Positions 1 to 64,000 of a stretch of DNA of 64,000 bases are shown one piece after another. How positions within the stretch are numbered: position 1 is the stretch's first letter; every line of letters begins with the position of its first letter. The notes under the pieces were generated by a model that worked only from the letters and a program-made list of their open reading frames with translations, made no database searches and was not told the DNA's origin. Where the stretch lies: positions 1-64,000 of the IMG/VR virus record IMGVR_UViG_3300045952_000124; one strand, 5' to 3'. The DNA comes from a virus. Both the position numbers and the translations under genes were made by a program.

Positions 1-605
1 CAAGCCTGTCAAATCCTGCAACCTCTTACAATACAGAGACTACAAGCATAGACTACGCAGAGACTACACTTGCGGCAGGGGCGCGAGAGCCTGCGGCGGC
101 GGCTGCACCTGCACCTGCGGCGGCTGCGGCTGCGCCTGCTCCGCGTATCCCGTTCTATGTGGTGCAGCAAGCGGCGACGCTGTACAGGGACGGCTTGACG
201 GACGGGCATACCGCGACGCTGCTGGAATGGTGGGCAGGACTGCCGCCGCAGGAGCGGGAGGCGTACGTCGGCAGCATGGCGGTATACGCAGCGCGTGAGA
301 CGGCGAAGTACACTGGCGGCGGTCCGGTGCTGCGGTACTTCTGCACGGTGTTGCGTCGCTGCCTGCAGCATCCAACCGATTACGATGAGCGGCAGAGGGC
401 GGAAGCGGAAGGACGCCCGGCTCCTGCACCGAAGCGCGGCGCAAGACAGACCGCGATACCAACGAAGCAGGACGGCACGATTGACGAGAGCCAACTAAGC
501 CCGATTATGCGTGGTATCCTTGAACAGTCGAAGGAGCAGGCGGCGGAGCGCCGGGCAGCACGCGAACGCGCAGCCGGAGCCGGAATGAAGGGAGACACGA
601 ATTGA
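1..605 (+). CDS. Unrecognised protein, 5' end cut by window edge
   Basis: The frame beginning at base 3 is open from the window edge to the TGA at 603-605, so about 200 residues are visible and the real start lies outside; GTG 159 is only an internal alternative. The visible part begins Ser/Thr-rich, passes through a Pro/Ala linker that carries two CCTGCGGCGG motifs (90, 114), then a compact segment with a WW pair and several tyrosines, and ends in a charged helical tail. I recognise no domain. It overlaps the next gene by 4 bases, suggesting coupled translation. Confidence 0.7.
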   Translation, partial: SLSNPATSYNTETTSIDYAETTLAAGAREPAAAAAPAPAAAAAAPAPRIPFYVVQQAATLYRDGLTDGHTATLLEWWAGLPPQEREAYVGSMAVYAARETAKYTGGGPVLRYFCTVLRRCLQHPTDYDERQRAEAEGRPAPAPKRGARQTAIPTKQDGTIDESQLSPIMRGILEQSKEQAAERRAARERAAGAGMKGDTN

Positions 606-1045
606 ACGACGAAGCCAACGCGCATCCTGTAACGGGCTACTATGAGCCGACCTGTCAAGCCCGGCAGAAGGACGGGTCGCGGTGCAAGCGGTACGCTACG
701 TTCGCCGCGTGTGGTCCGACCTTCTTCTGCGGCACGCATATCAAGTCGTACAGGGCGGCTCCTGACGACGTGATGCGGCAGGTTTATCCTGAGCCGGCCT
801 TTGACCCGCGTGCGGTTAGCATACCGTGGCTTATGGCGGTCGCGGACATGGAAGCGGAGCAGGCGAAGCACAAAGAGCGGCAGGCTGCGGCATACGACAC
901 CAAAGCGGCAATCCTGCGGCGGCAGGCGATTGAAGCGCGCGCAAGAGCGACGCACTACAGGGGCATCTTGAAGGGGCGCATGACTTACACTCCGCAGGAA
1001 CAGGAAGCGCCGGAAGGAGGGAGCGATGGATCCGCAGTCGGATAG
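602..1045 (+). CDS. Small Cys-rich (zinc-finger-like) protein
   Basis: 147 residues, TTG start at 602 behind GAAGGGAG and overlapping the upstream stop. Residues 18-45 contain four cysteines and a histidine (C18, C27, C36, C42, H45) in a G-x-R-C-K-R ... F-C-x-x-H pattern typical of small phage zinc-binding domains that follow a basic loop. The C-terminal half is a long charged helix. Zinc and nucleic acid binding are inferred from the pattern only. It overlaps the next gene by 20 bases. Confidence 0.65.
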   Translation: MNDEANAHPVTGYYEPTCQARQKDGSRCKRYATFAACGPTFFCGTHIKSYRAAPDDVMRQVYPEPAFDPRAVSIPWLMAVADMEAEQAKHKERQAAAYDTKAAILRRQAIEARARATHYRGILKGRMTYTPQEQEAPEGGSDGSAVG

Positions 1046-1508
1046 GTTCGCGCTGGCGGCTGTGGCGGTCGGCTACTTGGACCTAATAGCGAAGCTACCG
1101 CGACCTGCGCCGCCGCAGGCTGTAGTAACCCTGCTTGACGCGGCTCTCGGGGCGCAGATACGCTGGTATCACAGGGTCTACAGGATACACGCCTGCGCCG
1201 CCGATGAGCAAGCCAACATAATCGCAGCCGCCCGGCAGTTGCTTGAGCTTGCGGGTCGGCAGGACATACACATCATGGAAGCAACGGACCCAACCGGACG
1301 GGGCGGCGTGTACGGCGAAGGGGAGCCGGAGCCGACCGACCGCGATAGCGGCGACGAACACAGAGAGCCGGGGCCGGAGCAGGTGCAGGCTTCTACTCTG
1401 CCGTTCAAGGTACGACCGAAGCCGACCGACGATCCGGTGTGGGACGCGATTGTGCGCGTTGGTGCGTCGCACGACCTGCCCGGCTTCGCCAATCCTAGCA
1501 GGAATTGA
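1026..1508 (+). CDS. Hypothetical protein
   Basis: 160 residues, ATG preceded by an excellent GGAAGGAGGG site inside the previous gene. The N-terminal 80 residues look globular and helical (Ala/Leu-rich, a WYHR motif), followed by an acidic, Pro/Glu/Arg linker and a short hydrophobic C-terminal segment. No family recognised. It contains one CCGCCGCAGG motif at 1110. Confidence 0.65.
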   Translation: MDPQSDRFALAAVAVGYLDLIAKLPRPAPPQAVVTLLDAALGAQIRWYHRVYRIHACAADEQANIIAAARQLLELAGRQDIHIMEATDPTGRGGVYGEGEPEPTDRDSGDEHREPGPEQVQASTLPFKVRPKPTDDPVWDAIVRVGASHDLPGFANPSRN

Positions 1509-1547
1509 GTAAAATACAGGTACAAACACACATGCAGAGGTGTAAAG

Positions 1548-2099
1548 ATGCGGCAGAATGGCTCTCAGAGCGTCCTATCTATCGAAGAACAGCTTGCGGC
1601 GGCGGGCGCGACCCGGAAAGATATGCACATCGGTTCCACCGGAGCCGGGCGCGACCGCAAGTACGGCAATGAGATTGTGGATAACCTTGACGGGCGGTTT
1701 GATAGCATTGTAGAATACAGGTCGTATGTAGGACTTCGGACACGCGAAGCCGCAGGAGAGATAACGGACCTGCGGCGGCAGGTGCAATTTGAAATCTACG
1801 TGAACGGTGTTTGGGTATGCGGTTGGAAGGCGGACTTTGTGTTTACGGAAGCGGGCAAGCTGGTAATCGCGGACGCTAAAGGGCGGCTTGACCGGGAGTT
1901 CACACGACTGTACAGGCTGTTCTATGCCCTGACGGGTATCCGCATACGCATCTACACGGAGAAGGGAATTGCGTCGGACCTGCCGCTCCGCTTTGAACGC
2001 GGGGCAGGGCGCGCCGAAGGGCTACAGAAGCGAAGTGGCAAGAGGCAATACACGGTAATCCGAAAGGGGGCAAACGGTGAAAGCGACAGTTACCTATAG
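1548..2099 (+). CDS. DUF1064-type phage nuclease (Holliday-junction-resolvase-like)
   Basis: 183 residues. The core follows the DUF1064 pattern: KYGNE (38-42), then FDS-x-x-E (E56), a GEI-x-DL strand before Q80-x-x-F, Y/W-x-ADF (D96) and V-I-A-D-A-K-G (D109, K111). This E...D...D-x-K arrangement is the active site of a PD-(D/E)XK-like endonuclease fold used by phages to resolve branched DNA or debranch it before packaging. It is of the family's usual size. The start region (MRQNGSQSVL) is encoded by a copy of the GAATGGCTCTCAG sequence also found in the interspersed noncoding element, so the first residues may be recent additions; a downstream start is possible. Overlaps the next gene by 23 bases. 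Confidence 0.8.
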   Translation: MRQNGSQSVLSIEEQLAAAGATRKDMHIGSTGAGRDRKYGNEIVDNLDGRFDSIVEYRSYVGLRTREAAGEITDLRRQVQFEIYVNGVWVCGWKADFVFTEAGKLVIADAKGRLDREFTRLYRLFYALTGIRIRIYTEKGIASDLPLRFERGAGRAEGLQKRSGKRQYTVIRKGANGESDSYL

Positions 2100-2634
2100 G
2101 CGGCTAGTACCGCTCCGGCAGTACGAGAACGAAGCGTATGAGCTAACGTTGGAGGTAGACACGGGCGGAGAGGAGCCTTATTCGCAGGCGCACATTGACG
2201 AAGCGTTCCAACAGGTGCGCCGAGACGTGATCCGGCAGTGTCCGCCGAACGTGCAGGCGTATGAGGGGATTGAACGGGAGCAGGAGCCACAGGCGCAGGT
2301 CGCGCAGGCTGCAGACCCGCCGTTCAATGAGGGTGGCGATGCGCCGTACGTTCCGGCGTGGGCTCCGCAGAAGCAAGTCATTACAGCGCCGCCGCAGGTC
2401 GCAGGCTCCAACGGCTACGACAGGTCGGAGCGGGCAGGGGTGAGCAGCACGCCCGGCAACCCTGCGTCCGAGAAGCAGTGGAAGCTACTTGACAAGCTAT
2501 GCGCGGAGCAGGGCATCGTGCTTGACACTCTGCTCTATGAGCGCGGGCTTGACCCGAACAGCCTGTCAAGCCGGGACGCAAGCGCGACGATTGAGGCGCT
2601 TATGCCTATGAGCAAAGGTCCGGGGCGGCGCTAA
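2077..2634 (+). CDS. Hypothetical protein, possible DNA-transaction accessory
   Basis: 185 residues, GTG start after AAAGGGGG. The N terminus (about 1-60) is a strand-rich domain with a QYENEAYEL motif; a disordered Pro/Gln/Ala middle follows; the last 55 residues read SEKQWKLLDKLCAEQGI ... ASATIEAL, a small helical module that I have seen at the C terminus of phage recombination and ssDNA-binding proteins. Position directly after the nuclease fits such a role, but the assignment is inference. Confidence 0.6.
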   Translation: MKATVTYRRLVPLRQYENEAYELTLEVDTGGEEPYSQAHIDEAFQQVRRDVIRQCPPNVQAYEGIEREQEPQAQVAQAADPPFNEGGDAPYVPAWAPQKQVITAPPQVAGSNGYDRSERAGVSSTPGNPASEKQWKLLDKLCAEQGIVLDTLLYERGLDPNSLSSRDASATIEALMPMSKGPGRR

Positions 2635-2879
2635 TGGGCGCCCTCTCCTACGCGGAAGTGTTCAACGCGGTCCGGGCGGAGATGCCGGACGCAGATTGGA
2701 CGGACGTTACAGTAGAAGCGCAGCGCAGGTTTCACGGCGACGTTGTAATGGCCCTGATAAGGGACGCGGCGACGGCGCAAGAGATGTTCGGAGACGATGA
2801 GCTAGAAAGGTTCGCATCGGAATACAAGAGAGCGCAGTTAGAAAAGACGGCAGTCTTGCCGCCTGCGGACGATCTGTAG
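2634..2879 (+). CDS. Hypothetical protein, 81 aa
   Basis: Starts in a TAATG overlap with the previous stop, so it is translationally coupled. Mostly helical, acidic C terminus, no Cys, no recognised motif. Confidence 0.6.
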   Translation: MGALSYAEVFNAVRAEMPDADWTDVTVEAQRRFHGDVVMALIRDAATAQEMFGDDELERFASEYKRAQLEKTAVLPPADDL

Positions 2880-4905: not shown

Positions 4906-5258
4906 TACTGCTCCTGCGCTTGAACGAAGTCAGATACGTGGGCGACGCGGTGTCTCCGCCCGATCCGCACCTGTACCGCCTGCGGCTTGGCGACCGCCTG
5001 TACGTGTGGCTAGGCATCGGGGAAGACTTGCTGCCGGAAGTCGGCACGAAGCTAATCACCGTATGGGAAACGGCGGGCGACGCGGCGCTAGCGCAGGAGC
5101 ATCCGGTCGCGGTAGAAGTTGAATGGCCTCTGCCGTCCGGCGCGGTCGTGAAAATGCGCTGGCGCATCGGGCAGCGCTGCGTTCTGCTGCCGCCCGGACA
5201 TAAATTGGGCGCAGGGGAGCAGGCAGCGCCGCCGCCGCAGGCTTCAAGGCAAGTTTAG
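4902..5258 (+). CDS. Hypothetical protein, 118 aa
   Basis: I choose ATG 4902, which forms an ATGA overlap with the ASCH gene stop; a GTG/ATG further up (4833) would overlap by 73 bases. The product is strand-rich (alternating hydrophobics, WLGIGEDLLPEVG) and ends in an AAPPPQA tail encoded by a CCGCCGCAGG copy. Last gene before the promoter at 5323. Confidence 0.55.
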   Translation: MILLLRLNEVRYVGDAVSPPDPHLYRLRLGDRLYVWLGIGEDLLPEVGTKLITVWETAGDAALAQEHPVAVEVEWPLPSGAVVKMRWRIGQRCVLLPPGHKLGAGEQAAPPPQASRQV

Positions 5259-5322: not shown

Positions 5323-5373
5323 TTGACAGCCGTCCTGCGGCGGCGGTATAATGTCGTAGTCGCGGAATACGAC
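5323..5373 (+). promoter_or_regulatory. Promoter with operator-like box (P1)
   Basis: TTGACA (5323-5328), 18-base spacer containing CCTGCGGCGG, TATAAT (5347-5352). The operator-like dyad GTCGTA (5353-5358)-N9-TACGAC (5368-5373) begins at the base after the -10, so it should cover the start site. The same box follows eight other promoters in the window. A small CCCG-CGA-CGGG hairpin (5375-5385) lies in the leader. Confidence 0.8.
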
Positions 5374-5411: not shown

Positions 5412-6620
5412 ATGACCGAATTACTGGTAAGGGACGGGCATTTGACCGAGAAGATCGTGTTTACCGGACCTGCGGTGTATCAGGGCGAAGCGGAAGCGGA
5501 CCCGGCTGTGGCTGTGCTGCCCGCGAAGACGCTCCGCAAGTACATCGCGGTCGTTGAAGCAGTCTCGGCGGCATCGGGCATTGTAACGGACCGCCCGAAG
5601 TGGCACGACGCGATGCAGAGTTGGGTCCGGTCGGCGGCTCCGGCGAAGGGCATGCTGCTAATTAGCAACGATGAGTACAACACGCTTGCGAATAAGCACT
5701 CCAACCTGCGGAGCGACCTGAACGATTGGTACTCTGAGCTACGCGCCGACATGAACGTGCCGGGCAGTCCGTACGACATGAGCGATGAGGAAATGATCGG
5801 CTACTTGAAGGCGCACGTCGCGACGTACATGAGCAAGAAGCAGCCGCCGCAGGGCGACGCCGAGACGCTTCTTATCGGCATGCCGCACCTGTTGGATTTA
5901 GCGGCGCAGTTGGGCATTGAGAACCCTGCGGCGGCGGCGAAGCACCTGTTTGAGCAGATAATAAACATGACGGCGCATCTGCGGAAGCGGCTTGACGATT
6001 GCAAGGCGGCAAGCGACGAAGTTGACCGGACATGGAAGGAAGTCCGCCGACACCTGCGCGACATTGACGGCGATCTGCGCCCGCACGACCCACTGTACGC
6101 CGCGTCGGTTGACCACCCGGACGAAGCGCAGGGCATATTCGTTGACTACGTGCTGCAAGAGGTTGCCCGCGCCGTGCGGCGGCTCCTGCAGGACTTGGCG
6201 GACGTGAAGCACGCTGCAGAGATAGGCGCAAGGGAGCGCACGGCGTTTGAGGTCGCGCTTAGGGTCGCAACGGCGGACTTGAAGGAGGCGCGGGGCGACG
6301 TGCTGCAGGACTTGAACAACATGATAACCGAAATTGAGACGGTGCTTGAAGTGCGCGAACCTCTGCGACCGCACGCGGAGCAGGAGCCGGGCGCGCAGCA
6401 AACAGCGCCGCCGCAGGCTGTTGAGTTGCAGGTGACAACTGCGTCCTACTATCCGGGCGACCGTTGCCCGCGCTGCCCCGGCACGCTTGTGAGGACCGTT
6501 GCATCGGATGGTGTTAGTGCGGGCGTCTACGTTGAGTGCGATAGCTGCCACCACGCTTACACGATAGCGCCGGGCTATGAGCCGCCGCAGGCTCCGCGTG
6601 CGCTGCCGATTGAGGACTAA
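5412..6620 (+). CDS. Large hypothetical protein with C-terminal zinc ribbon
   Basis: 402 residues, AAGGAGG site, first gene behind promoter P1. Residues about 130-320 are long charged helices (coiled-coil-like heptads around 185-215 and 250-310). A Pro/Gln linker precedes a C-terminal C352-P-R-C355 ... C376-D-S-C379 zinc ribbon. No family recognised; the architecture (helical body plus nucleic-acid-type ribbon) suggests a DNA-associated role, which is inference. Confidence 0.65.
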   Translation: MTELLVRDGHLTEKIVFTGPAVYQGEAEADPAVAVLPAKTLRKYIAVVEAVSAASGIVTDRPKWHDAMQSWVRSAAPAKGMLLISNDEYNTLANKHSNLRSDLNDWYSELRADMNVPGSPYDMSDEEMIGYLKAHVATYMSKKQPPQGDAETLLIGMPHLLDLAAQLGIENPAAAAKHLFEQIINMTAHLRKRLDDCKAASDEVDRTWKEVRRHLRDIDGDLRPHDPLYAASVDHPDEAQGIFVDYVLQEVARAVRRLLQDLADVKHAAEIGARERTAFEVALRVATADLKEARGDVLQDLNNMITEIETVLEVREPLRPHAEQEPGAQQTAPPQAVELQVTTASYYPGDRCPRCPGTLVRTVASDGVSAGVYVECDSCHHAYTIAPGYEPPQAPRALPIED

Positions 6621-8039: not shown

Positions 8040-8230
8040 AGCCGCCGCCGATACCGTTGATACCGCCGATACCTACAGCGCAGCCGCAAGACTTCCTGCC
8101 GCCGCCGCAGGTTCTTTCCGGCAGCACGGAAGCATTGGGCTTGACCCTGCTAATCCTGCTCTGCATGGTGTGCTTCGTCGCGCTTGCGCTTGTGGTCGTA
8201 GCGGGAGAACGCGACAGAAGCAGGAGTTGA
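8036..8230 (+). CDS. Small single-pass membrane protein
   Basis: 64 residues from ATG 8036, overlapping the previous stop as ATGA. A proline-rich N terminus (PPPIPLIPPIP) is followed by one long hydrophobic segment (about residues 34-56, LTLLILLCMVCFVALALVVV) and a short charged tail. Probable inner-membrane protein; it is far from the lysis region, so a role in lysis is not implied. Confidence 0.6.
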   Translation: MKPPPIPLIPPIPTAQPQDFLPPPQVLSGSTEALGLTLLILLCMVCFVALALVVVAGERDRSRS

Positions 8231-9427: not shown

Positions 9428-10644
9428 GCGCCGCCGCAGGTCGCGCCGGGACCGGGGCAGGCTCCGGCACTACGGTCAAAGGCATGTCGCACGGCTCCGG
9501 GTCGTACCAACGCCGGGGCAACCTGACGACGAACGTGTACGAAGAAGCGCTCTCCCGGCTAGTAGGACTGTACGCTGCAGGGGAGCGCGTGGTCGTAGCG
9601 TTCTCGGCGGGCAAGGATTCGGGCGTGTGCCTTGAGCTGTGCATAGAAGCCGCCCGGATAACCGGACGCCTGCCCGTTGACGTAGTAATGCGCGATGAGG
9701 AGATAATGTTTCCCGGCACGTTTGAGTACGCGGAGCGTGTGGCGAACCGACCGGAAGTAAACTTCAAGTGGCTAGTCGCGCACCAACCGATCATAAATTG
9801 CTTCAACCGGGCGGAGCCGTACTTCTGGGCGTTTGACCCGCTCCTGCCGCCCGATAAATGGGTCCGCACTCCGCCGCCGTTCGCTGAGGAAATGGGCGTT
9901 ATGCACATTGAGACAATGGTGCATCCTGACAGGTTCCCGATTGAGAGCGGGCAGACTTTGTTCTCGGTCGTAGGGCTGCGCGTGCAGGAGAGCCGGAACC
10001 GCCTGTACTCTATATTTTCCTCACGCGGACACCTGACGAAGCCCAACGCTTACGGCGTGCGGAATTGCCGCCCGATCTACGATTGGAAGCACGGCGACGT
10101 TTGGAAAGCAATCCACGAAAAGGGGTGGGACTACAACCGGGCGTACGATGTGATGCTCCGCTTCGGAGTGAAGCAGTACGCCATGCGAATAGGACCGCCG
10201 ACCTTGAACCCTCTCGGTGCGCGCATCTTGAAGCCTGCGGCGTCCGCTTGGCCCCGCTGGTTCGACAAGGTATGCGACAGGTTGCCGGGCGTGCGTCAGG
10301 TGGCGCTGTTCGGCTTGCGCGTCGTGCAGCCGGACAGGAGACAGGGCGAACACTGGCAGCAAACGTTCCAACGCGAATGTATTGACAACGCGCCCGGCTG
10401 GATAGCGGAGCGGGCAGTCGCTTACTCCAACGCTATCCTAAAAGCGCACTCAAAGCACAGCACCGGACCACTGCCGGAGAAGATACCCTGCAGGATACAC
10501 AAAGGCAACATCGGCAGTTGGAGGGCGCTGACGCACGCCCTGTACAACGGCGATCCGTTCGCCCTGCGGACCGACCTGCCCGTCATAGAGCCGGAGTTCT
10601 TCCGGCAGGGAGCCGGAACGTGGGGCGGCAAGCCGACCTTTTAG
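9424..10644 (+). CDS. PAPS reductase / IbrA-like PP-loop enzyme
   Basis: 406 residues. PP-loop pyrophosphatase motif V-V-V-A-F-S-A-G-K-D-S (56-66), followed by DEEIMFP, W-x-x-A-H, and later Y-D-V-M-L-R-F-G-V-K-Q-Y-A-M-R-I-G, features I associate with the phosphoadenosine-phosphosulfate-reductase superfamily members that phages and islands carry (IbrA/DUF3440 type, related to DndC). Family members activate a nucleotide or sulfur donor by adenylation; the phage substrate is unknown. IbrA-like genes usually accompany a ParB-like IbrB; one is present at 13360. ATG 9424 overlaps the methyltransferase stop; M21 is an alternative start. Confidence 0.8.
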   Translation: MSAAAGRAGTGAGSGTTVKGMSHGSGSYQRRGNLTTNVYEEALSRLVGLYAAGERVVVAFSAGKDSGVCLELCIEAARITGRLPVDVVMRDEEIMFPGTFEYAERVANRPEVNFKWLVAHQPIINCFNRAEPYFWAFDPLLPPDKWVRTPPPFAEEMGVMHIETMVHPDRFPIESGQTLFSVVGLRVQESRNRLYSIFSSRGHLTKPNAYGVRNCRPIYDWKHGDVWKAIHEKGWDYNRAYDVMLRFGVKQYAMRIGPPTLNPLGARILKPAASAWPRWFDKVCDRLPGVRQVALFGLRVVQPDRRQGEHWQQTFQRECIDNAPGWIAERAVAYSNAILKAHSKHSTGPLPEKIPCRIHKGNIGSWRALTHALYNGDPFALRTDLPVIEPEFFRQGAGTWGGKPTF

Positions 10645-10654
10645 GTCGCGGAGT

Positions 10655-10705: not shown

Positions 10706-10842
10706 ATAACGCTCCGCAGAGCCGCCGCAGGAAAAGCCCTGAAACGCTCTGAGAGCCATTCAGCCGCGTCAATACCGCGAATGAGTACACTTATAGTCAT
10801 GCTGCTATTCTGACGATTTCGTGCGTGATATTAGAACATGAG
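10706..10842 (+). repeat. Interspersed noncoding element, copy A
   Basis: Begins CGCTCCGCAGAGCCGCCGCAGG, continues through GCTCTGAGAGCCATTCAGCCGCGTCAATACC and ends CTATTCTGACGATTT-CGTGCGTG-ATATTAGAACATG (written in pieces). Copies at 35464 (inverted), 47653 and 55005 share the order of these blocks. ATGTTCTAAT at 10685-10694 is the exact inverse of ATTAGAACAT at 10831-10840, bracketing most of the copy. It fills the gene-free stretch 10645-10910. Confidence 0.8.
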
Positions 10843-10910: not shown

Positions 10911-11780
10911 ATGGGGGGGATGAGCGACATGGCGGATTTAGTAGTGACGCAGGCGGACTTAGCGCAAGTGTATCAGGGGCTATACCGACCGGGCAACAAG
11001 AGGATCGCGGTAGACGGCTACACGGTACTTGACGGGCTTGACCTGACATTACCAAGCCTGTTCCCTGCGGCATGGGCGGGAGAGCTTGCGGCGGCGGCTG
11101 CGCTGCGCGGCAGGAAGGTCGAGAAGAAGGGGCGCGGACCGGGCAGTTTGGAGGGCGACGAAACGGCGGGCTTGGACTACCGGGTATTGACAATGAGCGG
11201 CATAAAGGACGCCTGCCCGTGGCTGTACATACTGTACCAATCGCCGCTCCTGCGGGCGGTCGTAGCGCACGAAGTTGGGGAGCCTGTTGACATAGCGCAG
11301 GACGAATGGGCGTTGAACGTCAACCTGCTATTAGGCGGCGGCGGGCGGTACGAATGGCACGTTGACGGGCAACCGTACACGCTCCTGCTATACCCGGAGA
11401 CGTTCTCGCATGAGGAAGGCGGCGCGCTCCTGTTGGCTCCGGGCATCAACCCGGACGGCACGACGCGGCAGTTGGCGGACTATACGCACAGGTACGCGCA
11501 GAAGAAGATCGGCGGGCGGGCGGAGCGCATAGACCACTACCCCAATTGGGTGCAGACGGTGCGACCTGTCGCCGGGCGCTGCGTGATCTTCGATGGGAGC
11601 AGGATACCGCACGCGGTTGAACCCGTGTTCGTTGAGCGGAGCCGGGTGAGCGTGCCTATGGTGTACCTGCCCGCCACAGCCGCAGCAGCCGCCGCAGCCG
11701 CCGCAGGTCGCGACGATACGCTCTCGGGCTATCTGTACGCAGAGCAGGAGCAGGAAGCGGAGCCGGAAGGGGACGCATGA
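10911..11780 (+). CDS. 2OG-Fe(II) oxygenase, HalD/BesD-like hydroxylase
   Basis: 289 residues. The double-stranded beta-helix iron site is visible: R-Y-E-W-H150-V-D152-G (H-x-D), distal H234 in R-I-P-H-A-V-E-P and the 2-oxoglutarate-binding R245 in R-S-R-V-S-V. LNVNLLLGGGGRYEW before the H-x-D resembles the BesD/HalD amino-acid halogenase family, but here the Asp is kept, which predicts hydroxylation rather than halogenation. Substrate unknown: free amino acid, nucleobase or protein. Start is uncertain: ATG 10911, 10920 and 10929 are in frame, and the GGGGGG run best serves 10929. An Ala run (about 257-265) precedes the acidic tail. Overlaps the next gene by 4 bases. Confidence 0.8.
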   Translation: MGGMSDMADLVVTQADLAQVYQGLYRPGNKRIAVDGYTVLDGLDLTLPSLFPAAWAGELAAAAALRGRKVEKKGRGPGSLEGDETAGLDYRVLTMSGIKDACPWLYILYQSPLLRAVVAHEVGEPVDIAQDEWALNVNLLLGGGGRYEWHVDGQPYTLLLYPETFSHEEGGALLLAPGINPDGTTRQLADYTHRYAQKKIGGRAERIDHYPNWVQTVRPVAGRCVIFDGSRIPHAVEPVFVERSRVSVPMVYLPATAAAAAAAAAGRDDTLSGYLYAEQEQEAEPEGDA

Positions 11781-12613: not shown

Positions 12614-13394
12614 GCACCTGTACGGCGACGCTGGCGACCGATACCCGGTTGAGGTTGGCGACGTGTGGCAGATCGGCAAGCACATCCTAGCCTGCGGCGA
12701 CCTTGAGATGGGCGCGGGCGTTGAGTTCCTTGCGACGTACGTGCGCGGCGGCAGACCGGACGTGAGCTTCGTTGACCCGCCGTGGAACGCGGGCAACGCG
12801 AGAAGCTTCCGCACGAAGGCAGGCGTCGGCAGGGCAGTCAACTTCTACCGCCTGATAAGCAAAGTATTGGAGACGCTTGCGAAGTCGCGGCGCGACGTGT
12901 TCATAGAGATGGGCGTCTCGGAGTGCGACAATGTGCGGGCGCGGCTTGAAGAATACGGGGCGCGCCTGCTTGACACATGGGACATAACGTACTACCGCAA
13001 GAACCCGTGTCGGCTCCTGTGGGGCACGTTCACGGGGCAGGCATACCCGCGCCTGTTGGACTGCAACCGACTGGACGACGAAGTAGCCACGCCGAAAGTA
13101 ATCGCCGCCGCCGCAGGCAGGGGTGATATAGTCTTTGACCCGTGCATGGGCAGGGGGTTGTCGGCGGTATCGGCGCTCCGGGCAGGGGCGACGGCGGCAG
13201 GGCTTGAGTTGAACCCGCGACGGCTAGCGGTTACTATTGACAAGCTTGCCTCATTAGGGGCAGGGGCGGAGCGCGGGCAGGAGCCGCGCCGGATCGCCGT
13301 CCTCTCCTGCATGACAGGGGCGGCAGAAGCAACCGAAGCAGACAAGGAGCATCCCACCAATGGCAACCCGCACGCAGACGCAGAAGAAGACTAA
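12567..13394 (+). CDS. DNA N4/N6 methyltransferase (beta class)
   Basis: 275 residues. Catalytic motif IV is V-D-P-P-W (69-73, DPPW) and precedes the SAM-binding motif I, V-F-D-P-C-M-G-R-G (189-197, then a G-L-E-L-N-P strand), the beta-class order. N-terminal W-Q-I-G-x-H-x-L-x-x-G-D is motif X. It would methylate an exocyclic amino group of adenine or cytosine; no target-recognition domain is obvious and specificity cannot be read off. Start ATG 12567 has a GGGAGGG site and overlaps the previous gene by 47 bases. Confidence 0.85.
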   Translation: MTTTSRSTSPKAPNPKHLYGDAGDRYPVEVGDVWQIGKHILACGDLEMGAGVEFLATYVRGGRPDVSFVDPPWNAGNARSFRTKAGVGRAVNFYRLISKVLETLAKSRRDVFIEMGVSECDNVRARLEEYGARLLDTWDITYYRKNPCRLLWGTFTGQAYPRLLDCNRLDDEVATPKVIAAAAGRGDIVFDPCMGRGLSAVSALRAGATAAGLELNPRRLAVTIDKLASLGAGAERGQEPRRIAVLSCMTGAAEATEADKEHPTNGNPHADAEED

Positions 13395-14338: not shown

Positions 14339-14363
14339 AGATGACACAGGAGCGCCGCCGCAG
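14339..14363 (+). repeat. AGATGACACAGGAGCGCC element
   Basis: A copy of the GAGATGACAC element (first G replaced by C) followed by AGGAGCGCC and a CCGCCGCAGG motif. Unlike the copy at 62523, the left stem arm is missing. It lies in the 113-base gap before the terminase small subunit gene. Confidence 0.5.
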
Positions 14364-14390
14364 GGCGCGCAGCGCTAACAGGATACAAAC

Positions 14391-29182: not shown

Positions 29183-29250
29183 CTAGCCCGTCGCCCGGCA
29201 CACCTGCGGCGGCAGTGGGCAATAAGTTACACGTAAGGGAGTTTAGCCTT

Positions 29251-45087: not shown

Positions 45088-45192
45088 CCTGCCGCTCCGC
45101 CGCATCGCGTAGCCCGAGAAGCACAATCTACCTGCAGCGCATCGGCGCAGAGCCGCCGCCGCAGGCAACCCAAAGAACAGGAGTGACACACA

Positions 45193-47765: not shown

Positions 47766-47812
47766 CTATGCCGGGCAACCTGCAGCCGCCGCAGGCTCCG
47801 CCCGGCATAGAT

Positions 47813-49563: not shown

Positions 49564-49602
49564 ACCTGCGGCGGCGGAGCCGGGCGCGCCGCCGCCGCAG
49601 GT
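49564..49602 (+). terminator. 13 bp hairpin made of two motif copies
   Basis: ACCTGCGGCGGCG (49564-49576) and CGCCGCCGCAGGT (49590-49602) are exact inverses with a 13-base loop, in the 72-base gap between two genes. Very stable; a terminator-like or mRNA end structure, again formed from the recurring 10-mer. Confidence 0.5.
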
Positions 49603-51765: not shown

Positions 51766-51888
51766 GTCAGAATAGCCCTGCGTGTATGTTCGCCTGCGTG
51801 AACTACTGCAGGGCTTCTCTGTTGCCTGTCGTGCGCCGCCGCCGCCGCAGGCTCCGCGACCTGCGCCCGGCAGAGAGCCGGCCACGCG

Positions 51889-52377: not shown

Positions 52378-52800
52378 ATGAGCGAGAAGTTTTACGGCAC
52401 GAACGGCACGATGTACACCGAAGTGGAGTGGGCAGGGCTTATGAAGCTAGCGAACGTTTTGGGCGGAGTTCTCGGAAGGATAACGGACGCCGCCGCCGCA
52501 GGCAGGTCGCACGACGCGCTTGACAGGCAGAGCATCGCCGCCCTGAACGCGATGCGCCGCTTGGAAGCTTCGGGCAAGGCACGCGCCGCCGAACACTCCT
52601 GCAACGCCTGCGTTGAGACGCCCGGCTGCTGGCGGCTAGACGGCAAGGAAGTAACCTGCGTGTGCTGCGACGGTCGCGGGTGGTACACACCGGAGCAGGA
52701 AGCGGAGCATCTGGATATGCTCCGCGAGATGCAGGCGGAGCGCACGGCGGAGCGCCGGAACGAAGAAGCGCTGTACAAGTACGAATTGCCTGCCGACTGA
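52378..52800 (+). CDS. Cys-rich (DnaJ-type CxxCxGxGW) protein
   Basis: 140 residues from ATG 52378. C-N-A-C ... C-V-C-C-D-G-R-G-W resembles half of a DnaJ zinc centre. N-terminal 60 residues helical; C-terminal acidic helix. ATTGG sites begin two bases after the stop. Confidence 0.58.
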   Translation: MSEKFYGTNGTMYTEVEWAGLMKLANVLGGVLGRITDAAAAGRSHDALDRQSIAALNAMRRLEASGKARAAEHSCNACVETPGCWRLDGKEVTCVCCDGRGWYTPEQEAEHLDMLREMQAERTAERRNEEALYKYELPAD

Positions 52801-52941: not shown

Positions 52942-53712
52942 ATGACGAACGAAATGAGCAGCGACATGAGGAAGCGACAGCAGGTGCGGAGCGGTGGCAA
53001 GTATGCGAAGTATGACGTAACGTGTGAGTTGTGCGGCAGGGGCATAAATGAGGACACTATGGAGACGCCGAACGGGTTGTACTTCGCGACCGATGAGTTG
53101 GGCTTTGTACCCTGCATCTGCGAGAAGTGCATCCCGGTGTTTGATTGGATGAAAGAGCCGGAAGCGGTCGCGTACCTGTTGAAGTACGGAGACGGCACGC
53201 AGAAGCCCGGCAAGAAGGCGGCGGATTGGGTGTTCGTCGCGGAGCCTGCGGTTGAGGCTCCTGCGGCGGCGGCTCCGGTTGAGGTTGAGGACATGCCTGC
53301 CCCTGAGAAGGGCGACACGTTTGAGTACAGGAACGCATACGCGGCGGCGCAGGCAGAGGCGCGGGCGCAGGTCGCAGCGATTGAGAAGCGCCGGGCGCAC
53401 ATGCTAGCCTGTGAGCGGCTTGTACACTTCGCCCGCGAAGCGGAGCAGGCAGCGCGAGACGCCGGGTTCTCTAACACAGCCGACGTGATGCACAAGGAAT
53501 ATGCGTTCGGCGTTACGATGCTGGCGAAGGCTATGGACGACCTGCACGCGCTAGGCGTGCCGATGAGCTTGATGTTAGACACGCAGGGGCTTGGCAAGGC
53601 TCCTGCGGCGGCTGCGCCCGGCTCCGGCTCCGCAGGTGCAGGTCGCGAGATGCCTGCAGGCTTCGGACCGATACGCACGATGAAGGTAGTTGAGCGAGAG
53701 GACGGCAGGTAG
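52942..53712 (+). CDS. Zinc-finger-like protein with coiled coil
   Basis: 256 residues, first gene after P5. C-E-L-C (28-31) and C-I-C-E-K-C (about 59-64) form a plausible zinc knuckle; a Pro/Ala linker precedes a long helix (EYRNAYAAAQAEARAQVAAIEK) and a Gly/Ala tail. Function unknown. Confidence 0.55.
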   Translation: MTNEMSSDMRKRQQVRSGGKYAKYDVTCELCGRGINEDTMETPNGLYFATDELGFVPCICEKCIPVFDWMKEPEAVAYLLKYGDGTQKPGKKAADWVFVAEPAVEAPAAAAPVEVEDMPAPEKGDTFEYRNAYAAAQAEARAQVAAIEKRRAHMLACERLVHFAREAEQAARDAGFSNTADVMHKEYAFGVTMLAKAMDDLHALGVPMSLMLDTQGLGKAPAAAAPGSGSAGAGREMPAGFGPIRTMKVVEREDGR

Positions 53713-54283: not shown

Positions 54284-54886
54284 ATGAGGGACGAAGGCAT
54301 GCACACACACTTGGCAGTAACAGTCAGGGCGGGCGCGGAGTTGACCGACGTAAAGACCGGGGCGCGGCTCCGGCTTGCGGAGCCGATTGAGACGGCAGTG
54401 ATAGCAGTAACGGCTACGACCTGCTTCGCCTATGACAGCCGCATATACGCAGTCTCGGCGGAGTACGTGACGATAGACGGCATATGGAGCGGAGCCTTTG
54501 CGCGGGCGGCGGCGGAGCGGCACGCGGCAGGCATGGACCGGATCGGCTTGAAGACGGCACGATACCCGGCTCCGCAAGGGGAGCCTCTGCAGGCTCCGAC
54601 CTGCCCGGCATGCGGAGCGGCGCTTGACCCCTCTGTGCGGCACACCTGCGGCGGCACGTTGGCGGAGTTGGAAGCCCTGCAGCATGAACACATGGCAGGA
54701 CAGGTCCGGGTCCGGGCAAGGGCGAACGCCGTCGCGGAGCGCATCGCAGAGGGCAGGGCGGCGGGCGTTGAGCCGACGATCTGCAAGTCATGCAAGGCGG
54801 AGTGTCCTGCCGGGGCGACGATGTGTTGGTGCTGCCGCAACTGGACGGACGGCATGATCCGGGGCATGACGAACGATAGCGACTGA
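54284..54886 (+). CDS. Double zinc-ribbon protein
   Basis: 200 residues from ATG 54284, the start that fits the leader hairpin. C-P-A-C-G ... H-T-C-G-G (about 107-125) and C-K-S-C ... C-W-C-C (about 168-185) give two metal sites separated by an Arg-rich helix. Stop overlaps the next start. Confidence 0.58.
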   Translation: MRDEGMHTHLAVTVRAGAELTDVKTGARLRLAEPIETAVIAVTATTCFAYDSRIYAVSAEYVTIDGIWSGAFARAAAERHAAGMDRIGLKTARYPAPQGEPLQAPTCPACGAALDPSVRHTCGGTLAELEALQHEHMAGQVRVRARANAVAERIAEGRAAGVEPTICKSCKAECPAGATMCWCCRNWTDGMIRGMTNDSD

Positions 54887-55008: not shown

Positions 55009-55147
55009 CGCTCCGCAGAGCCGCCGCAGGACACGCCCTGAGACGCGCTGAGATGACACAGGACGCATCAATACCCCTCTGTGGCTATGTATGCAGCCGT
55101 GCCGCTATTCTGACGATTTTGTGCGTGATTTTAGAACGTGGTTGCTA
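55005..55147 (+). repeat. Interspersed noncoding element, copy D
   Basis: CGCTCCGCAGAGCCGCCGCAGG as in copy A, then GACGCGCTGAGATGACACAGG (in pieces; the GAGATGACAC sequence at 55050-55059), CATCAATACC, CTATTCTGACGATTT-TGTGCGTG-ATTTTAGAAC and GTGGTTGCTAC, the last shared with copy B. Opens the gene-free stretch 55009-55331, which also holds ATTGG sites and P6. Confidence 0.8.
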
Positions 55148-55917: not shown

Positions 55918-56241
55918 ATGGCTACAATACCCGGACTGGCCCTATTGGACACGTTCTGCGAAGCGGCGATGAAAGCCTGCGTCCTGCAGGCGCGGAGCCG
56001 CAACTTGGAGGTAGACGCGGAGTTGGTGATCGGTCCTCTGCGCGTGCAGACTGCGGAGCAGTACAATAACCTGTTGGCGGACGTGAAGCACGCCGCCGCC
56101 GCAGGCGGAGTAAGCGTTGAGCGCGCTTTGGAGATGCTGCCGGGCGACATGCTCCGCGACCTGACTAACAGTCGCGCTAACGTGGCGGGCGTGCAGGCTT
56201 TGATAGCGGCGGGCTACATTCCCGCCGAAGGAGGACAGTAG
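55918..56241 (+). CDS. Hypothetical protein, 107 aa
   Basis: ATG 55918 with AAGGAGG. Helical, Leu/Ala rich, two Cys (ATFCEAAMKACVLQ region), with AAAAGG encoded by a motif copy. No recognised family. Two bases separate its stop from the next ATG. Confidence 0.55.
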   Translation: MATIPGLALLDTFCEAAMKACVLQARSRNLEVDAELVIGPLRVQTAEQYNNLLADVKHAAAAGGVSVERALEMLPGDMLRDLTNSRANVAGVQALIAAGYIPAEGGQ

Positions 56242-57119: not shown

Positions 57120-57168
57120 TTGACACACCTGCGGCGGCGGCGTATACTTCGCAGGTCGGACACACGAC
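57120..57168 (+). promoter_or_regulatory. Promoter with variant operator box (P7)
   Basis: TTGACA (57120-57125), 17 bases containing ACCTGCGGCGG, TATACT (57143-57148), then TCGCA-GGTCGGACA-CACGAC (57149-57168). The whole region is nearly duplicated at P9. No ATTGG sites. Confidence 0.75.
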
Positions 57169-57665: not shown

Positions 57666-58618
57666 TGAGCGGCATTGGAGCGATACCCGTCAAGCGCGGC
57701 TGCGGCACGCGGCAGGCGGGCGGAGTGTATTGGGAGTTGGGTATAGGTCCGGGCGGCGCGCCTGCAGAGGCGTTTCTGGTAGACGCTCCGCAGCTTCTAC
57801 CGGAAGGGTACGTGCTACCAAACCGGGGCGTCGGCATACTGGAGCGGGGCGCAGTAACGCACTTGGTAGACCGGATCGGGCTGTCGGATTACCCTAACAC
57901 GCTGGACTACTTTTTGGAGGGCAAGGAGTACGGCTACAGCCGCCGTCTCCCGGCGACGCTTGACTACAGCGTGCTAGGAGAAGCGTCGCGGCTCCTGCCC
58001 GTGCATGACCGCGCGTTCCTGCACAACTATGCGGACCTGTGCGCGGCGAACGTGACGCTGCCCTCTGTAATCTGCCCGAAGGGGTTGCCGCACCACCCGC
58101 TATGGTGCGCTATCGGCAGGGCGGAGCAGGTCGGTTGGCAGGAGTACGGAATAGAATTGGAGCCGCCGCAGGAGTTGAGGTCGTTCGGCACGATTGAGCG
58201 GGTCGGAGTAATCCTGCCGACGCAGCGCGTGAACCCTTTGTACGTGCGTGAGGACGCGCTTGCGGCGTCGGCACGCGGAGAGGCGTACGAACACTACCAC
58301 ATCGAAGTCGTGCCGCCTGAACCGATGTGCTGCTCCGCTTGGTGGAGCCTGCTTGACCCGGACACCTGCGAACCTGCGCCGCAGGTACACGGTTGGGGCG
58401 ACGGCTACAGCAAGCGGAAAATGCCGTCGTTTGAATACAACGCCTACAAGGTTCCGGGCGACTTCTCTCCGAAGTACGCCCCGGCGATATTTATGAGCCT
58501 GCCTGCTTCGCGGATCGTAATCGTCCGCGACGAAGACGACCCGCAGTACGCGGAGAAGGCGGAGCGCATAGACCGCATGCTTGACGGGCGGCTACACTTT
58601 ACGGAGGTAGATCAGTGA
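57665..58618 (+). CDS. Hypothetical protein, 317 aa
   Basis: Alpha/beta protein with several Cys (GCGTRQAGG, CAANVTLPSVICPKG, MCCSAW), a Trp-rich stretch and an HHPLW motif. The regular strand pattern suggests a single folded domain, but I do not recognise it. It overlaps the ParB-like gene by 4 bases and may act with it. Confidence 0.55.
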   Translation: MSGIGAIPVKRGCGTRQAGGVYWELGIGPGGAPAEAFLVDAPQLLPEGYVLPNRGVGILERGAVTHLVDRIGLSDYPNTLDYFLEGKEYGYSRRLPATLDYSVLGEASRLLPVHDRAFLHNYADLCAANVTLPSVICPKGLPHHPLWCAIGRAEQVGWQEYGIELEPPQELRSFGTIERVGVILPTQRVNPLYVREDALAASARGEAYEHYHIEVVPPEPMCCSAWWSLLDPDTCEPAPQVHGWGDGYSKRKMPSFEYNAYKVPGDFSPKYAPAIFMSLPASRIVIVRDEDDPQYAEKAERIDRMLDGRLHFTEVDQ

Positions 58619-60114
58619 GTGACAATCGGACGAACACGAACAGGAAGCAGGGTGAGGGGCAGGCTGCACAATCGGCGCTAGACCTGTCTCTCCTGCCGGG
58701 CAAGATGCCCGAACACATAGCGAACGCGAACATACCGCTCAACGTGCTGCCGCCCGATGCGGAGTTGATAGGACCGGAGCCGACGCCGGGCTTGATGCAG
58801 AGCCTTCGCGACTTCGGCGGCGTGCTTGTGCCGCTCCTGCTGATAGCGGAAGGGCAGCTACAGGGACCAACCGGATACATCGTAGTGGACGGCACGCGGC
58901 GCGTGAAGGGTATGCGGCGCTGGCAGCGCGAATGGGCAGAGGAAGCGGAGCGCATAGAAGCGAAGCACGGGCAGGTAGACGTTGACGCCGGAGAGGTCGC
59001 GGACTTCCGGGCGTCGCGCCCGCCCCAAACTGTTCCGGCGCGCATATTCCCGCCGGGTTGGAGCCGGGCAGAGGTGCTATCGGTCGTAGCGAATGAGGAG
59101 CGGTCGGAGAACCTGCCCCGGACGCTTGACAACCTGCGGCGGCTCCTGCAGGCAGGGGTTGACCCGGAAGAAGTGCGGCGCTCCTGCGGGCTTGACAAGA
59201 CGCAGTACAAACAGGTCGCGCAGTTGCTAGCCTTGAACGCGGTACTCCTGCAGGCGTTGATAGACGGCAAGCTTCCGGCAGGGCGGGCGCGTGAGATAGC
59301 GAGAATGCCCGTCGCCCGGCAGGATAAGCTTGCGGCGATGTACGAAGCAGAGGGCAAGCTATCGGCAGAGGACGTGCGAGAAGTGCGGTCGGTTGGATCT
59401 GCGGCGGCGGCGGCGCTAATCCCTGACGACGTGTTCAACACGCCCGGCGCTGATGCGTCGGCTCCGGCATGGGGCGCTATGGGGTTCACTCCGGGCGCTG
59501 TGTTGACGGCGCAGGGCATGGCGACAATCGTAGCCGTACCTGCCGGGCAGGAGCCTTCAATACCCTACGTGTACAGGGAAGTAGACACCGAACACTGGCT
59601 TGCGAAGGTCAACAGGCTTATAGCGGAAGCGCTTGACGCGACGCCTGCCGATGCTCCGCACGCGCACCAGCTAATCGCATCGCTTGCGCGGTCGGCAGAG
59701 GAAGCGGACTTCCTGCTGACGCTGTACGCGCACGGTGAGCCTAGCGGTCCTACTCCGCATGAGCAGCTAATGTCTGAGCTTGCGGCGGCGGAAGCGGAAG
59801 ACCTGCGGCGGCAGTCGGAGCAGGAGCCGGAGCGGAAGAAGAAGCCCAAGAAGGAACGGCGGGCGCTATCGTCCGAGACGTACGACAACATCCCGGCTGA
59901 TAGCCCGTTCTCTACGTCCGCCGATCCGACTACGCTCCCAACAGAAGTCGCGGAGCAGGTCGGCGTTGAAGACCTGCAGGTTGACGACTTCGCGTCGCTG
60001 GCGAAGGGCGTGCAGTCGGAGCGGGTCGCGCCCGCCGAACCTGTATGGAGGCGAAAGAAGCCTGCAGAGGCGGCAGGAGTAGCCCCTGAGATGACACAGG
60101 GCGCGTCAGAATAG
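58615..60114 (+). CDS. ParB/KorB-like DNA-binding protein
   Basis: 499 residues. ParB-type N domain: L-N-V-L-P-P-D, L-R-D-F-G-x-V-L-V-P-L-L, I-V-V-D-G-T-R-R-V-K-G-M-R-R-W (about 96-110), then V-A-N-E-E-R-S-E-N-L and a helix-turn-helix (A-G-V-D-P-E-E-V-R-R-S-C-G-L-D-K-T-Q-Y-K-Q-V) followed by L-P-A-G-R-A-R-E-I-A-R-M. A partition or transcription-control role is plausible; it is a candidate binder of one of the repeated sites described here. The C-terminal EMTQGASE is encoded by the GAGATGACAC repeat. Confidence 0.75.
   Translation: MSDNRTNTNRKQGEGQAAQSALDLSLLPGKMPEHIANANIPLNVLPPDAELIGPEPTPGLMQSLRDFGGVLVPLLLIAEGQLQGPTGYIVVDGTRRVKGMRRWQREWAEEAERIEAKHGQVDVDAGEVADFRASRPPQTVPARIFPPGWSRAEVLSVVANEERSENLPRTLDNLRRLLQAGVDPEEVRRSCGLDKTQYKQVAQLLALNAVLLQALIDGKLPAGRAREIARMPVARQDKLAAMYEAEGKLSAEDVREVRSVGSAAAAALIPDDVFNTPGADASAPAWGAMGFTPGAVLTAQGMATIVAVPAGQEPSIPYVYREVDTEHWLAKVNRLIAEALDATPADAPHAHQLIASLARSAEEADFLLTLYAHGEPSGPTPHEQLMSELAAAEAEDLRRQSEQEPERKKKPKKERRALSSETYDNIPADSPFSTSADPTTLPTEVAEQVGVEDLQVDDFASLAKGVQSERVAPAEPVWRRKKPAEAAGVAPEMTQGASE
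60082..60101 (+). repeat. GAGATGACAC hairpin inside a gene end
   Basis: CCCT-GAGATGACAC-AGGG (60084-60101) overlaps the last codons of the ParB-like gene, followed by CGCGTCAGAATAG as in the copy at 51742. Confidence 0.6.
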
Positions 60115-60193: not shown

Positions 60194-61021
60194 ATGGACG
60201 GCATAAGCGAACACTTTGGCGATGTAGACATGGACGAAGCAACGGATAACGGCTATCAGGGCGGCTCCGCCCGGAATTACGGCGATTGGTCGGCGCACGA
60301 CCTGCTAGCCCGGTCGGTTGAGCTGCAGGAGCAGCAGGTCGCGCAGTTGGCGCGGTCGGCGGCGGCTCAGGAGCGGATCGCGATACAGGAGACGCGCAAG
60401 AGCAACTATCTCGGCGGGATACTCCTGCTCCTGCACTCTGCGGCGGCGGCGCATCTGGACCCGATAGTAACCGACCGCATACCGTTCGGCTTTGACGACT
60501 ATGAGGAGCCGGGCGACGGTCCGGGCGGAGCCGGAGCAGGTGCAGGGGCAGCAGCCGCCGCAGGGCGGGAAGGACCGCAGGCTTCGGTGTCAATCGGGGC
60601 GCGCATCAACGAAGACGGCACAATGACGCCGATAGCTTGCCCGCACAACCCACTTGGACCGGAAGCTTGCGCGCTCTGCGCGGCAGCGTTTGAGGCTATG
60701 GCCCCGATGATGCAGGACGCGGCGGCGGACCTGCGGGCGCGGGCTGCTTCGGCAACGCAGGCGTACCAAGAGTACGTCGCAAGCGTCGGACCGGGGCAAC
60801 CGCTAATGACCCTGCAGGAATGGAACCGCCAAAACGCGGCGGCGTCTCCGGCTCCGCGCCGGGCAGGTGGCAGACCGCCGATCACTCCGACCGAAGCCGG
60901 GTGGCTATCCGACCTGTACGCGCAGGGACCCAAGCAGGCGCAGGAAGCGCACGACCGCCGCATGGCAGCGAAGCAGGACGAACACGCCGAGACACAGGAG
61001 CCTTTGCCGCCGCAGGCATAA
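60194..61021 (+). CDS. Hypothetical coiled-coil protein
   Basis: 275 residues from ATG 60194 (AAAGGACG). Acidic N terminus, a Gln/Ala coiled coil (VELQEQQVAQLARSAAAQER), a Gly/Ala linker, C-P-H ... C-A-L-C metal-site candidate and a basic Pro-rich tail ending LPPQA encoded by a motif copy. Confidence 0.5.
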   Translation: MDGISEHFGDVDMDEATDNGYQGGSARNYGDWSAHDLLARSVELQEQQVAQLARSAAAQERIAIQETRKSNYLGGILLLLHSAAAAHLDPIVTDRIPFGFDDYEEPGDGPGGAGAGAGAAAAAGREGPQASVSIGARINEDGTMTPIACPHNPLGPEACALCAAAFEAMAPMMQDAAADLRARAASATQAYQEYVASVGPGQPLMTLQEWNRQNAAASPAPRRAGGRPPITPTEAGWLSDLYAQGPKQAQEAHDRRMAAKQDEHAETQEPLPPQA

Positions 61022-62899: not shown

Positions 62900-63495
62900 G
62901 CACGACGGGCGCGCCCGGCTCCGGCAGCACGGGCAAAGGCTCCGCGAAGGTGCAGGTCAAGCGGCTGCTAGCGGAAGTTGAGATAGCGGTCGCAGGTCCG
63001 GTTGACATGGACGGGACGAAGTACCGCCCGGTCCCGTTCACCTACGACGCGATAGGCTACTGGCGGCAGGCGCAGTACACAAAGATACCAGTGCCGCCGA
63101 CCGACTTCTATTCGTACCTGCGCGCAAAGAAGCTGTGCTTTGAGTGCTGCGGTCGCGGGCAGAGGAACACGGTACAGCGCCCGGTGTTCGGTCGCAACAC
63201 GGCGAACAAGAACGGGCTTGACTACCTGTACACGCCCTGCGCGACCTGCGGCGGCAGTGGGAAGCTACAGCCGGAGCAGGAAGAAGGTTGGTGGGCCAAG
63301 CACTTCGCCTACAAACAGGCATTGGAGCAGGAAGCGGCAAGGCACGCGGCGCAACCGCCGCCGCAGGCTCCGCCGATGAGACAGATCATTATCGCTCCTG
63401 CGGTTGACCGGATGCTTGACCGGGTAGACCCTGAAACCGGAGAGATACGGGAGCCGGAAGAAGCAGAAGAAGCAGAAGAAGGGGAGGAAGAATAG
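62896..63495 (+). CDS. Protein with DnaJ-type zinc centre
   Basis: 199 residues. C-F-E-C-C-G-R-G-Q and C-A-T-C-G-G-S-G-K are two CxxCxGxG-like half sites about 36 residues apart, as in DnaJ central domains, which bind unfolded protein or nucleic acid. The C-terminal tail is very acidic. Beta domain at the N terminus. Confidence 0.6.
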   Translation: MSTTGAPGSGSTGKGSAKVQVKRLLAEVEIAVAGPVDMDGTKYRPVPFTYDAIGYWRQAQYTKIPVPPTDFYSYLRAKKLCFECCGRGQRNTVQRPVFGRNTANKNGLDYLYTPCATCGGSGKLQPEQEEGWWAKHFAYKQALEQEAARHAAQPPPQAPPMRQIIIAPAVDRMLDRVDPETGEIREPEEAEEAEEGEEE

Positions 63496-63782: not shown

Positions 63783-63786
63783 CCTG

Positions 63787-63810
63787 CCTGCGGCTCCGCT
63801 ACTCCGCAGG
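63787..63810 (+). terminator. Hairpin before P9
   Basis: CCTGCGG (63787-63793) pairs with CCGCAGG (63804-63810), 10-base loop, followed at once by the -35 TTGACA. Probable end of the preceding transcript. Confidence 0.5.
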
Positions 63811-63811
63811 C

Positions 63812-63861
63812 TTGACACACCTGCGGCGGCGGCGGTATACTTCGCAGGTAGGACACACGAC
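63812..63861 (+). promoter_or_regulatory. Promoter with variant operator box (P9)
   Basis: TTGACA (63812-63817), 18 bases containing ACCTGCGGCGG, TATACT (63836-63841), then TCGCA-GGTAGGACA-CACGAC (63842-63861). Nearly identical to P7 including the CACACGACAC leader. Confidence 0.75.
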
Positions 63862-63906
63862 ACACGGCACACGACACGGAACAGAACGGAAGGGGGATGC
63901 ACGGAT

Positions 63907-64000
63907 ATGGAAGGATACGAATTGGGCGCGGGCGCGGCTCCGGCATACAAGCTGGTTAGCGCGGGCTACGTGGCTAACGTCGCTGCTACAAGCACAAAGA
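63907..64000 (+). CDS. Protein cut off by the right edge
   Basis: ATG 63907, with GAAGGGGG about 10 bases upstream; 31 codons are visible (begins MEGYELGAGAAPAYKLVSAG) with no stop. First gene after P9. No function can be assigned. Confidence 0.55.
   Translation, partial: MEGYELGAGAAPAYKLVSAGYVANVAATSTK

Follow-up and report, generated by a model that had tools for sequence, protein, structure and literature searches.

Comparison with described systems

Strict genome-wide DNA words are known in some bacteria, namely Chi, the uptake sequences and HIP1, whereas the cases known to us from phages are for the most part copies of the Chi of their host. Here we describe the 11-bp word GCCGCCGCAGG, which recurs throughout the window, by which we mean the whole stretch of tailed-phage DNA that was analyzed (64,000 nucleotides; positions 1 to 64,000 of IMG/VR record IMGVR_UViG_3300045952_000124). 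In this phage a longer word, with a 14-bp specificity, is present in 70 exact copies in a genome purged of most restriction palindromes. The nearest parallels are E. coli Chi (GCTGGTGG), which is read by RecBCD, and the Chi-rich lambdoid, T5-like and P1-like phages; Chi occurs in phages whose recombination relies on the host (PMC3784561). Like Chi, the phage word is strict, non-palindromic, genome-wide and over-represented at the level of DNA. It differs from Chi in length (11 + 3 bp versus 8 bp), in density (1.07 versus ~0.2 per kb), in having no orientation bias (its 44:26 ratio follows A/T skew) where Chi is polarized in its host, and in that no host carrying it was found.

The word also resembles the uptake sequences of Neisseriaceae and Pasteurellaceae, being of similar size (10–12 bp) and density (about one per kb), lying in both orientations and in permissive regions, and forming some hairpin pairs; for uptake sequences, too, a location in permissive regions and an arrangement in inverted pairs have been described (PMC3630211, PMC2346458), and they constitute up to 1% of the chromosome (PMC3630211). 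The phage word differs in being borne by a virus, whereas uptake sequences are found on the chromosomes of bacteria that possess a competence receptor. Every Neisseriaceae dialect shares CTG at +6 to +8 and an A at +10 (PMC3630211); by sequence comparison the phage word lacks this core and belongs to none of those dialects. HIP1 of cyanobacteria (GCGATCGC) is similarly an iterated genome-wide word, and an initial annotation of the window, made from the letters alone, had listed HIP1, Chi and uptake sequences as analogs; this was a fair list, except that we rejected HIP1, since the phage word is non-palindromic and GCGATCGC has 0 copies in the genome. Actinophage stoperators and repeated operators also place many copies of a 12–14-bp site in one phage genome. 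Stoperators are repressor sites, fewer in number and mostly between genes, unlike the 70 strict copies seen here, 51 of which lie inside the genes used for shuffling (below) and which have no one-mismatch excess.

Count and unit of the word

The IMG/VR record behind the window has 65,530 bp, and the window covers nearly the whole genome. Because the first and last 127 bp of the record are identical (a direct terminal repeat, window 1-127 = record 65404-65530), the genome is, in the assembly, a complete circle of 65,403 bp, and per-genome counts given here refer to this unique circle with the 127-bp repeat removed. The initial annotation had reported a 10-mer repeated about 70 times, roughly once per kb from 90 to 63820, with close to 50 copies in one orientation and about 25 in the other. 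An exact count bore this out with 71 copies in the window, the first at 90 and the last at 63820, and corrected the split to 45 of CCGCCGCAGG and 26 of CCTGCGGCGG. A G lies directly 5' of 69 of these 71 copies, indicating that the word is in fact the 11-mer GCCGCCGCAGG, which has 70 copies per circular genome (44 on the + and 26 on the - strand), or one per 0.93 kb.

Chance had been put at about one copy of the 10-mer, which holds for a composition model (0.65 at order 0; 1.4 at order 2), but order-3 word bias raises the expectation to 5.6. For the 11-mer, the comparison with Markov models that the annotation had proposed gave 0.2, 0.56 and 2.2 expected copies (orders 0, 2 and 3) relative to the 70 observed. 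Codon bias, which the annotation had considered capable of undoing its claim, did not account for the count either: synonymous-codon shuffling within genes, taken from a simple longest-open reading frame (ORF) selection with no trained prediction, left a mean of 6.5 copies and a maximum of 14 (300 shuffles), versus 51 in-gene copies observed. The 33 one-mismatch neighbors of the 11-mer were seen 27 times, with 25.6 expected from the order-3 model, and the excess of exact copies over these neighbors (70 versus 27) was the largest among the common 10–12-mers of the genome. Since near-copies are thus neither enriched nor kept, the word is all-or-none, which sets it apart from codon bias, low-complexity coding, slippage and graded-affinity operator families. 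A codon or composition artifact was ruled out by the Markov models, the shuffles and the neighbor counts together, and recent segmental duplication was rejected because the flanks are unique save for a few pairs.

Flanks and placement

Upstream of GCCGCCGCAGG we saw a graded flank: none of the 70 copies had G at position -1, 68 had C or G at -2 (background ~61%), and 61 had A or G at -3 (background ~58%), while there was no clear base preference on the 3' side. The lack of G at -1 follows from a general avoidance of GGCC, which does not explain the biases at -2 and -3. This 5' R-S-H flank was kept in all frames, on both strands and in intergenic copies, and its independence of frame, strand and gene context indicates that the specificity is that of the 14-mer RSHGCCGCCGCAGG (RSH-GCCGCCGCAGG). 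The graded rather than sharp 5' edge also argues against insertion of a mobile micro-element.

Copies of GCCGCCGCAGG occupy all six relative frames, as the initial annotation had stated, in addition to sites outside ORFs; of the intergenic examples it gave, those at 10722, 47786, 51842 and 55021 lie within short, questionable ORFs. The spacing statistics it had suggested showed a uniform distribution along the circle (Kolmogorov–Smirnov p = 0.66), with spacing slightly more regular than random (coefficient of variation 0.83 versus 0.98, p = 0.07). The orientation ratio fits the genome's A>T skew alone (p = 0.40), and no bias was left after correction. Recognizable protein domains held only 3 copies where 14.2 were expected, a more than fourfold depletion (p = 0.00026), and the TerL, capsid, Dit and ParB_N domains held none, indicating that copies sit where the protein tolerates them. 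Two copies form the spacers (17 and 18 bp) of TTGACA...TATACT promoter-like sites at 57128 and 63820, in agreement with the earlier mention of promoter spacers. The word is placed where protein or promoter can afford its presence. In addition, two intergenic inverted pairs form strong hairpins, one at 49565-49601 (-36.2 kcal/mol, z -5.3) and one at 24996-25040 (z -3.3); the latter lies downstream of the capsid gene, and its right arm is a 10-mer (25031-25040) in which A replaces the first G. With only two such pairs, a general terminator function was rejected, and so was an RNA-level motif, as 26 copies are antisense to transcripts given that all recognized genes are on the + strand.

Taken with the Markov excess, the synonymous shuffles, the neighbors at chance, the flank rule and the domain depletion, the claim that selection on GCCGCCGCAGG acts on DNA and not on protein is well supported. 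There is likewise good support for RSH-GCCGCCGCAGG as a recognition mark that runs through the double-stranded DNA of the whole phage genome, directly selected and kept at about one copy per kb.

Search for the word and for related phages

Single-protein scans with TerL, the capsid protein and the product of 38432-41758 found no close kin: TerL and capsid matches in the GenBank phage collection were remote (those listed had <30% identity), and the best TerL match in IMG/VR had 32% identity, although the collections searched may omit records very near the window, such that sister phages may exist. No tRNA hinting at a host was found in the genome. Scans of IMG/VR for inverted pairs of the word, in both arrangements, matched 11 and 13 contigs, none of which had more than 3 copies in its locus or, for those records that were counted in full, in the whole record, and a direct-pair scan returned mostly tandem low-complexity coding repeats among the matches listed. 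There was one copy in total across 80 loci with TerL relatives and none in 15 loci with PAPS-reductase relatives. An inverted-pair scan of 84,980 species gave 22 single hits in 22 loci, mostly of unrelated taxa, with no repeated pairs. As we estimate that a 4-Mb genome at the phage's density should yield ~25 such hits, a host at that density is excluded from this set, although a host at Chi-like density (0.2 per kb) is not. When the 14-mer was counted directly in ~440 genomes (three phyla and scattered others), no genome had more than 56 copies (~10 per Mb), a density roughly one-hundredth of that in the phage. Within the collections scanned we thus found no phage or sequenced species at the motif density of this phage, and no phage with such a word was found in the literature, so the initial impression that the word matches no known motif holds to that extent. 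One remote TerL relative in IMG/VR (L220, 745-7857) has 15 copies of a different word, CTAGACGTCTA (with palindromic core TAGACGTCTA), in 7 kb with no near-copies; these are possibly an operator family.

Restriction-site avoidance

We observed that 34 of the 64 six-base palindromes are absent from the genome. Among shorter or degenerate words, the observed and expected counts were 0 and 100 for TTAA, 0 and 140 for CCWGG, 7 and 210 for GANTC (0.03), 6 and 234 for GDGCHC, and 46 and 484 for GGCC and 37 and 257 for TCGA (both ~0.1); the non-palindromic words CGAGC (7 versus 336) and CCCAG (3 versus 140) were at ~0.02 of expectation. Such extreme avoidance suggests that the phage has probably met, and lived with, many restriction systems, site avoidance being a published viral anti-restriction strategy (PMC6286503). 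Since the neighbors of the 11-mer are at their expected level, avoidance alone would not create the word. CTGCAG, AAGCTT and TGTACA are 3–4-fold over-represented in the genome. This avoidance, like the eleventh base, the R-S-H flank and the all-or-none character, was absent from the initial annotation.

Possible readers of the word

It is probable that GCCGCCGCAGG is read by something as a tag on viral DNA. As the likeliest of the readings considered, we tentatively propose a Chi-like self-tag, whose reader would be a nuclease that processes DNA ends and belongs either to an unsampled host or to the phage. A sequence-specific machine would read RSH-GCCGCCGCAGG in all-or-none fashion; this machine might be a helicase-nuclease that enters at DNA ends, more likely the host's own than one encoded by the phage, and that on meeting the mark would stop degrading and spare the DNA. 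For a phage that has met many restriction systems, marks lying in either orientation at about one per kb could save the majority of its cut or replicating ends from degradation. We favor a Chi-like reader because of the strictness of the word, the lack of near-copies, the even and dense coverage, and the restriction pressure, as massive site avoidance makes cut ends a plausible hazard. Lambdoid phages without annealing-type recombinases and RecBCD inhibitors over-represent Chi (PMC3784561), and neither an annealing-type recombinase nor a RecBCD inhibitor was recognized among the phage genes scanned. Several points weigh against this proposal. Most of the phage proteins have no match, so the absence of a recognized recombinase or inhibitor is weak evidence, and no host among the ~440 genomes carried the word even at a modest density. 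In addition, E. coli Chi is an 8-mer found about once per 5 kb and polarized with replication (PMC8022716). Other known Chi-type sites are short as well. The phage word specifies 11 bases, is five times as dense as E. coli Chi and shows no orientation bias.

The main rival, which is possible although we consider it unlikely, is that the word binds a phage-encoded protein that acts in DNA organization, partition, replication or packaging and has to be loaded onto the genome at intervals of about 1 kb. The even spread, the slightly regular spacing and the orientation neutrality would suit such a protein, and the failure to find the motif in another phage or cell is what a private system predicts; the phage also encodes a ParB_N protein and a protein with weak similarity to ParB-type helix-turn-helix (HTH) domains (Table 1). 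However, graded-affinity sites normally include degenerate copies, and one-mismatch copies are at chance here. ParB-type sites are palindromic, unlike this word, and the single-sequence fold of the ParB-HTH-like protein (predicted local distance difference test, pLDDT, 39.9) lends the idea no support.

A phage-private self-tag, in which a phage-encoded reader (e.g., a nuclease-helicase or the packaging motor) would spare or select RSHGCCGCCGCAGG-bearing DNA while DNA without it would be degraded or excluded, seems to us doubtful; if true, it would be a viral self/non-self system without a counterpart in the host. The 14-mer provides a concrete probe for the reader, whose capture would show whether the word is a new kind of recognition site for end processing or part of a system by which a virus recognizes its own DNA.

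We give slightly less credence to the idea that the phage, by living in an unsampled bacterium, has acquired a motif spread across that host's genome, for example a DNA uptake sequence. The word's 10–12-bp size, density and orientation neutrality match uptake sequences, as does an inverted pair forming the hairpin at 49565-49601, but the hits among 84,980 species were scattered over mostly unrelated species, a phage gains nothing clear from being taken up, and no further phage at such a density was found. Recognition by a DNA methyltransferase or other modification enzyme is improbable: although DNA-methyltransferase-like, glucosyltransferase-like, 2OG-Fe(II)-oxygenase and PAPS-reductase-like genes are present, methyltransferase sites usually specify 4–8 bases, fewer than here, and there is no evident reason for a ~thirtyfold enrichment. 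Finally, an origin of the word in codon usage, in low-complexity proteins (PPQA, AAAG and PAAA linkers) or in GCC-repeat slippage can be dismissed almost entirely, for while the protein surroundings of the copies are slightly richer in A/P/G/Q/S/T/E (0.54 versus 0.48, p = 0.007) and GCCGCCGC is enriched on its own too, shuffles give few copies, neighbors that such causes would raise are at chance, and copies occupy every frame as well as intergenic sites, with a frame-independent flank.

Gene content and other repeats

Table 1. Copies of the 11-mer GCCGCCGCAGG in the window, and genes discussed in connection with it
Feature	Position	Strand	Context
11-mer copy	90..100	-	
11-mer copy	114..124	-	
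11-mer copy	242..252	+	
11-mer copy	913..923	-	
11-mer copy	1109..1119	+	
11-mer copy	1769..1779	-	within resolvase-like gene
11-mer copy	2388..2398	+	
11-mer copy	5231..5241	+	
11-mer copy	5334..5344	-	
11-mer copy	5843..5853	+	
11-mer copy	5925..5935	-	
11-mer copy	6407..6417	+	
11-mer copy	6581..6591	+	
11-mer copy	8101..8111	+	
11-mer copy	9430..9440	+	codon 3, PAPS-reductase-like gene
11-mer copy	10721..10731	+	between large genes
11-mer copy	11697..11707	+	
11-mer copy	13107..13117	+	within DNA-methyltransferase-like gene
11-mer copy	14354..14364	+	
11-mer copy	14934..14944	+	
11-mer copy	15780..15790	+	
11-mer copy	16078..16088	-	
11-mer copy	16643..16653	+	
11-mer copy	18714..18724	+	close to portal gene start
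11-mer copy	20341..20351	-	portal, C-terminal part
11-mer copy	21123..21133	+	
11-mer copy	21511..21521	+	
11-mer copy	23092..23102	+	
11-mer copy	24996..25006	-	left arm, hairpin downstream of capsid gene
11-mer copy	26149..26159	+	
11-mer copy	27109..27119	+	
11-mer copy	27946..27956	+	
11-mer copy	28006..28016	+	
11-mer copy	29203..29213	-	between genes
11-mer copy	29292..29302	+	
11-mer copy	30528..30538	+	between genes
11-mer copy	33350..33360	+	sole copy in 4.8-kb tape-measure gene
11-mer copy	35420..35430	-	between genes
11-mer copy	35598..35608	+	
11-mer copy	40349..40359	-	
11-mer copy	42118..42128	+	
11-mer copy	42440..42450	-	
11-mer copy	43507..43517	+	
11-mer copy	44289..44299	-	
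11-mer copy	45155..45165	+	between genes
11-mer copy	46253..46263	-	
11-mer copy	46417..46427	+	
11-mer copy	46622..46632	-	
11-mer copy	47785..47795	+	between large genes, within hairpin
11-mer copy	48392..48402	-	
11-mer copy	49565..49575	-	left arm, intergenic hairpin 49565-49601
11-mer copy	49591..49601	+	right arm, intergenic hairpin 49565-49601
11-mer copy	51009..51019	+	
11-mer copy	51841..51851	+	
11-mer copy	52492..52502	+	
11-mer copy	53260..53270	-	
11-mer copy	53602..53612	-	
11-mer copy	54645..54655	-	
11-mer copy	55020..55030	+	between large genes
11-mer copy	56095..56105	+	
11-mer copy	57128..57138	-	17-bp spacer of TTGACA...TATACT promoter-like site
11-mer copy	58162..58172	+	
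11-mer copy	59133..59143	-	within ParB-HTH-like gene
11-mer copy	59802..59812	-	
11-mer copy	60554..60564	+	
11-mer copy	61006..61016	+	
11-mer copy	63245..63255	-	
11-mer copy	63357..63367	+	
11-mer copy	63820..63830	-	18-bp spacer of TTGACA...TATACT promoter-like site
DNA-methyltransferase-like gene	12567-13394	+	adjoins ParB_N gene
ParB_N protein gene	13360-14277	+	
Gene for protein with weak ParB-type HTH similarity	58615-60114	+	

The genome encodes the tailed-phage proteins TerS, TerL, portal, major capsid, tape measure, Dit and minor tail proteins, in addition to resolvase-like, HNH and RNase H-like proteins. The block at 8567-14277, just before TerS, encodes a methyltransferase, a PAPS-reductase-like (IbrA-like) protein, a 2OG-Fe(II) oxygenase, a glucosyltransferase-like protein, the DNA-methyltransferase-like protein and the ParB_N protein, and is a possible DNA or surface modification cassette. 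We also noted a promoter-like repeat family with TATAAT or TATACT followed by a conserved downstream segment of the GTCGTAGGTAGGACATACG type (47869, 51940, 52848, 55264, 57135, 61056 and 63835), and a repeated element of ~55 bp containing CTGAGATGACACAGGGCGCGTCAGAATA (5264, 51747, 55048 and 60086).

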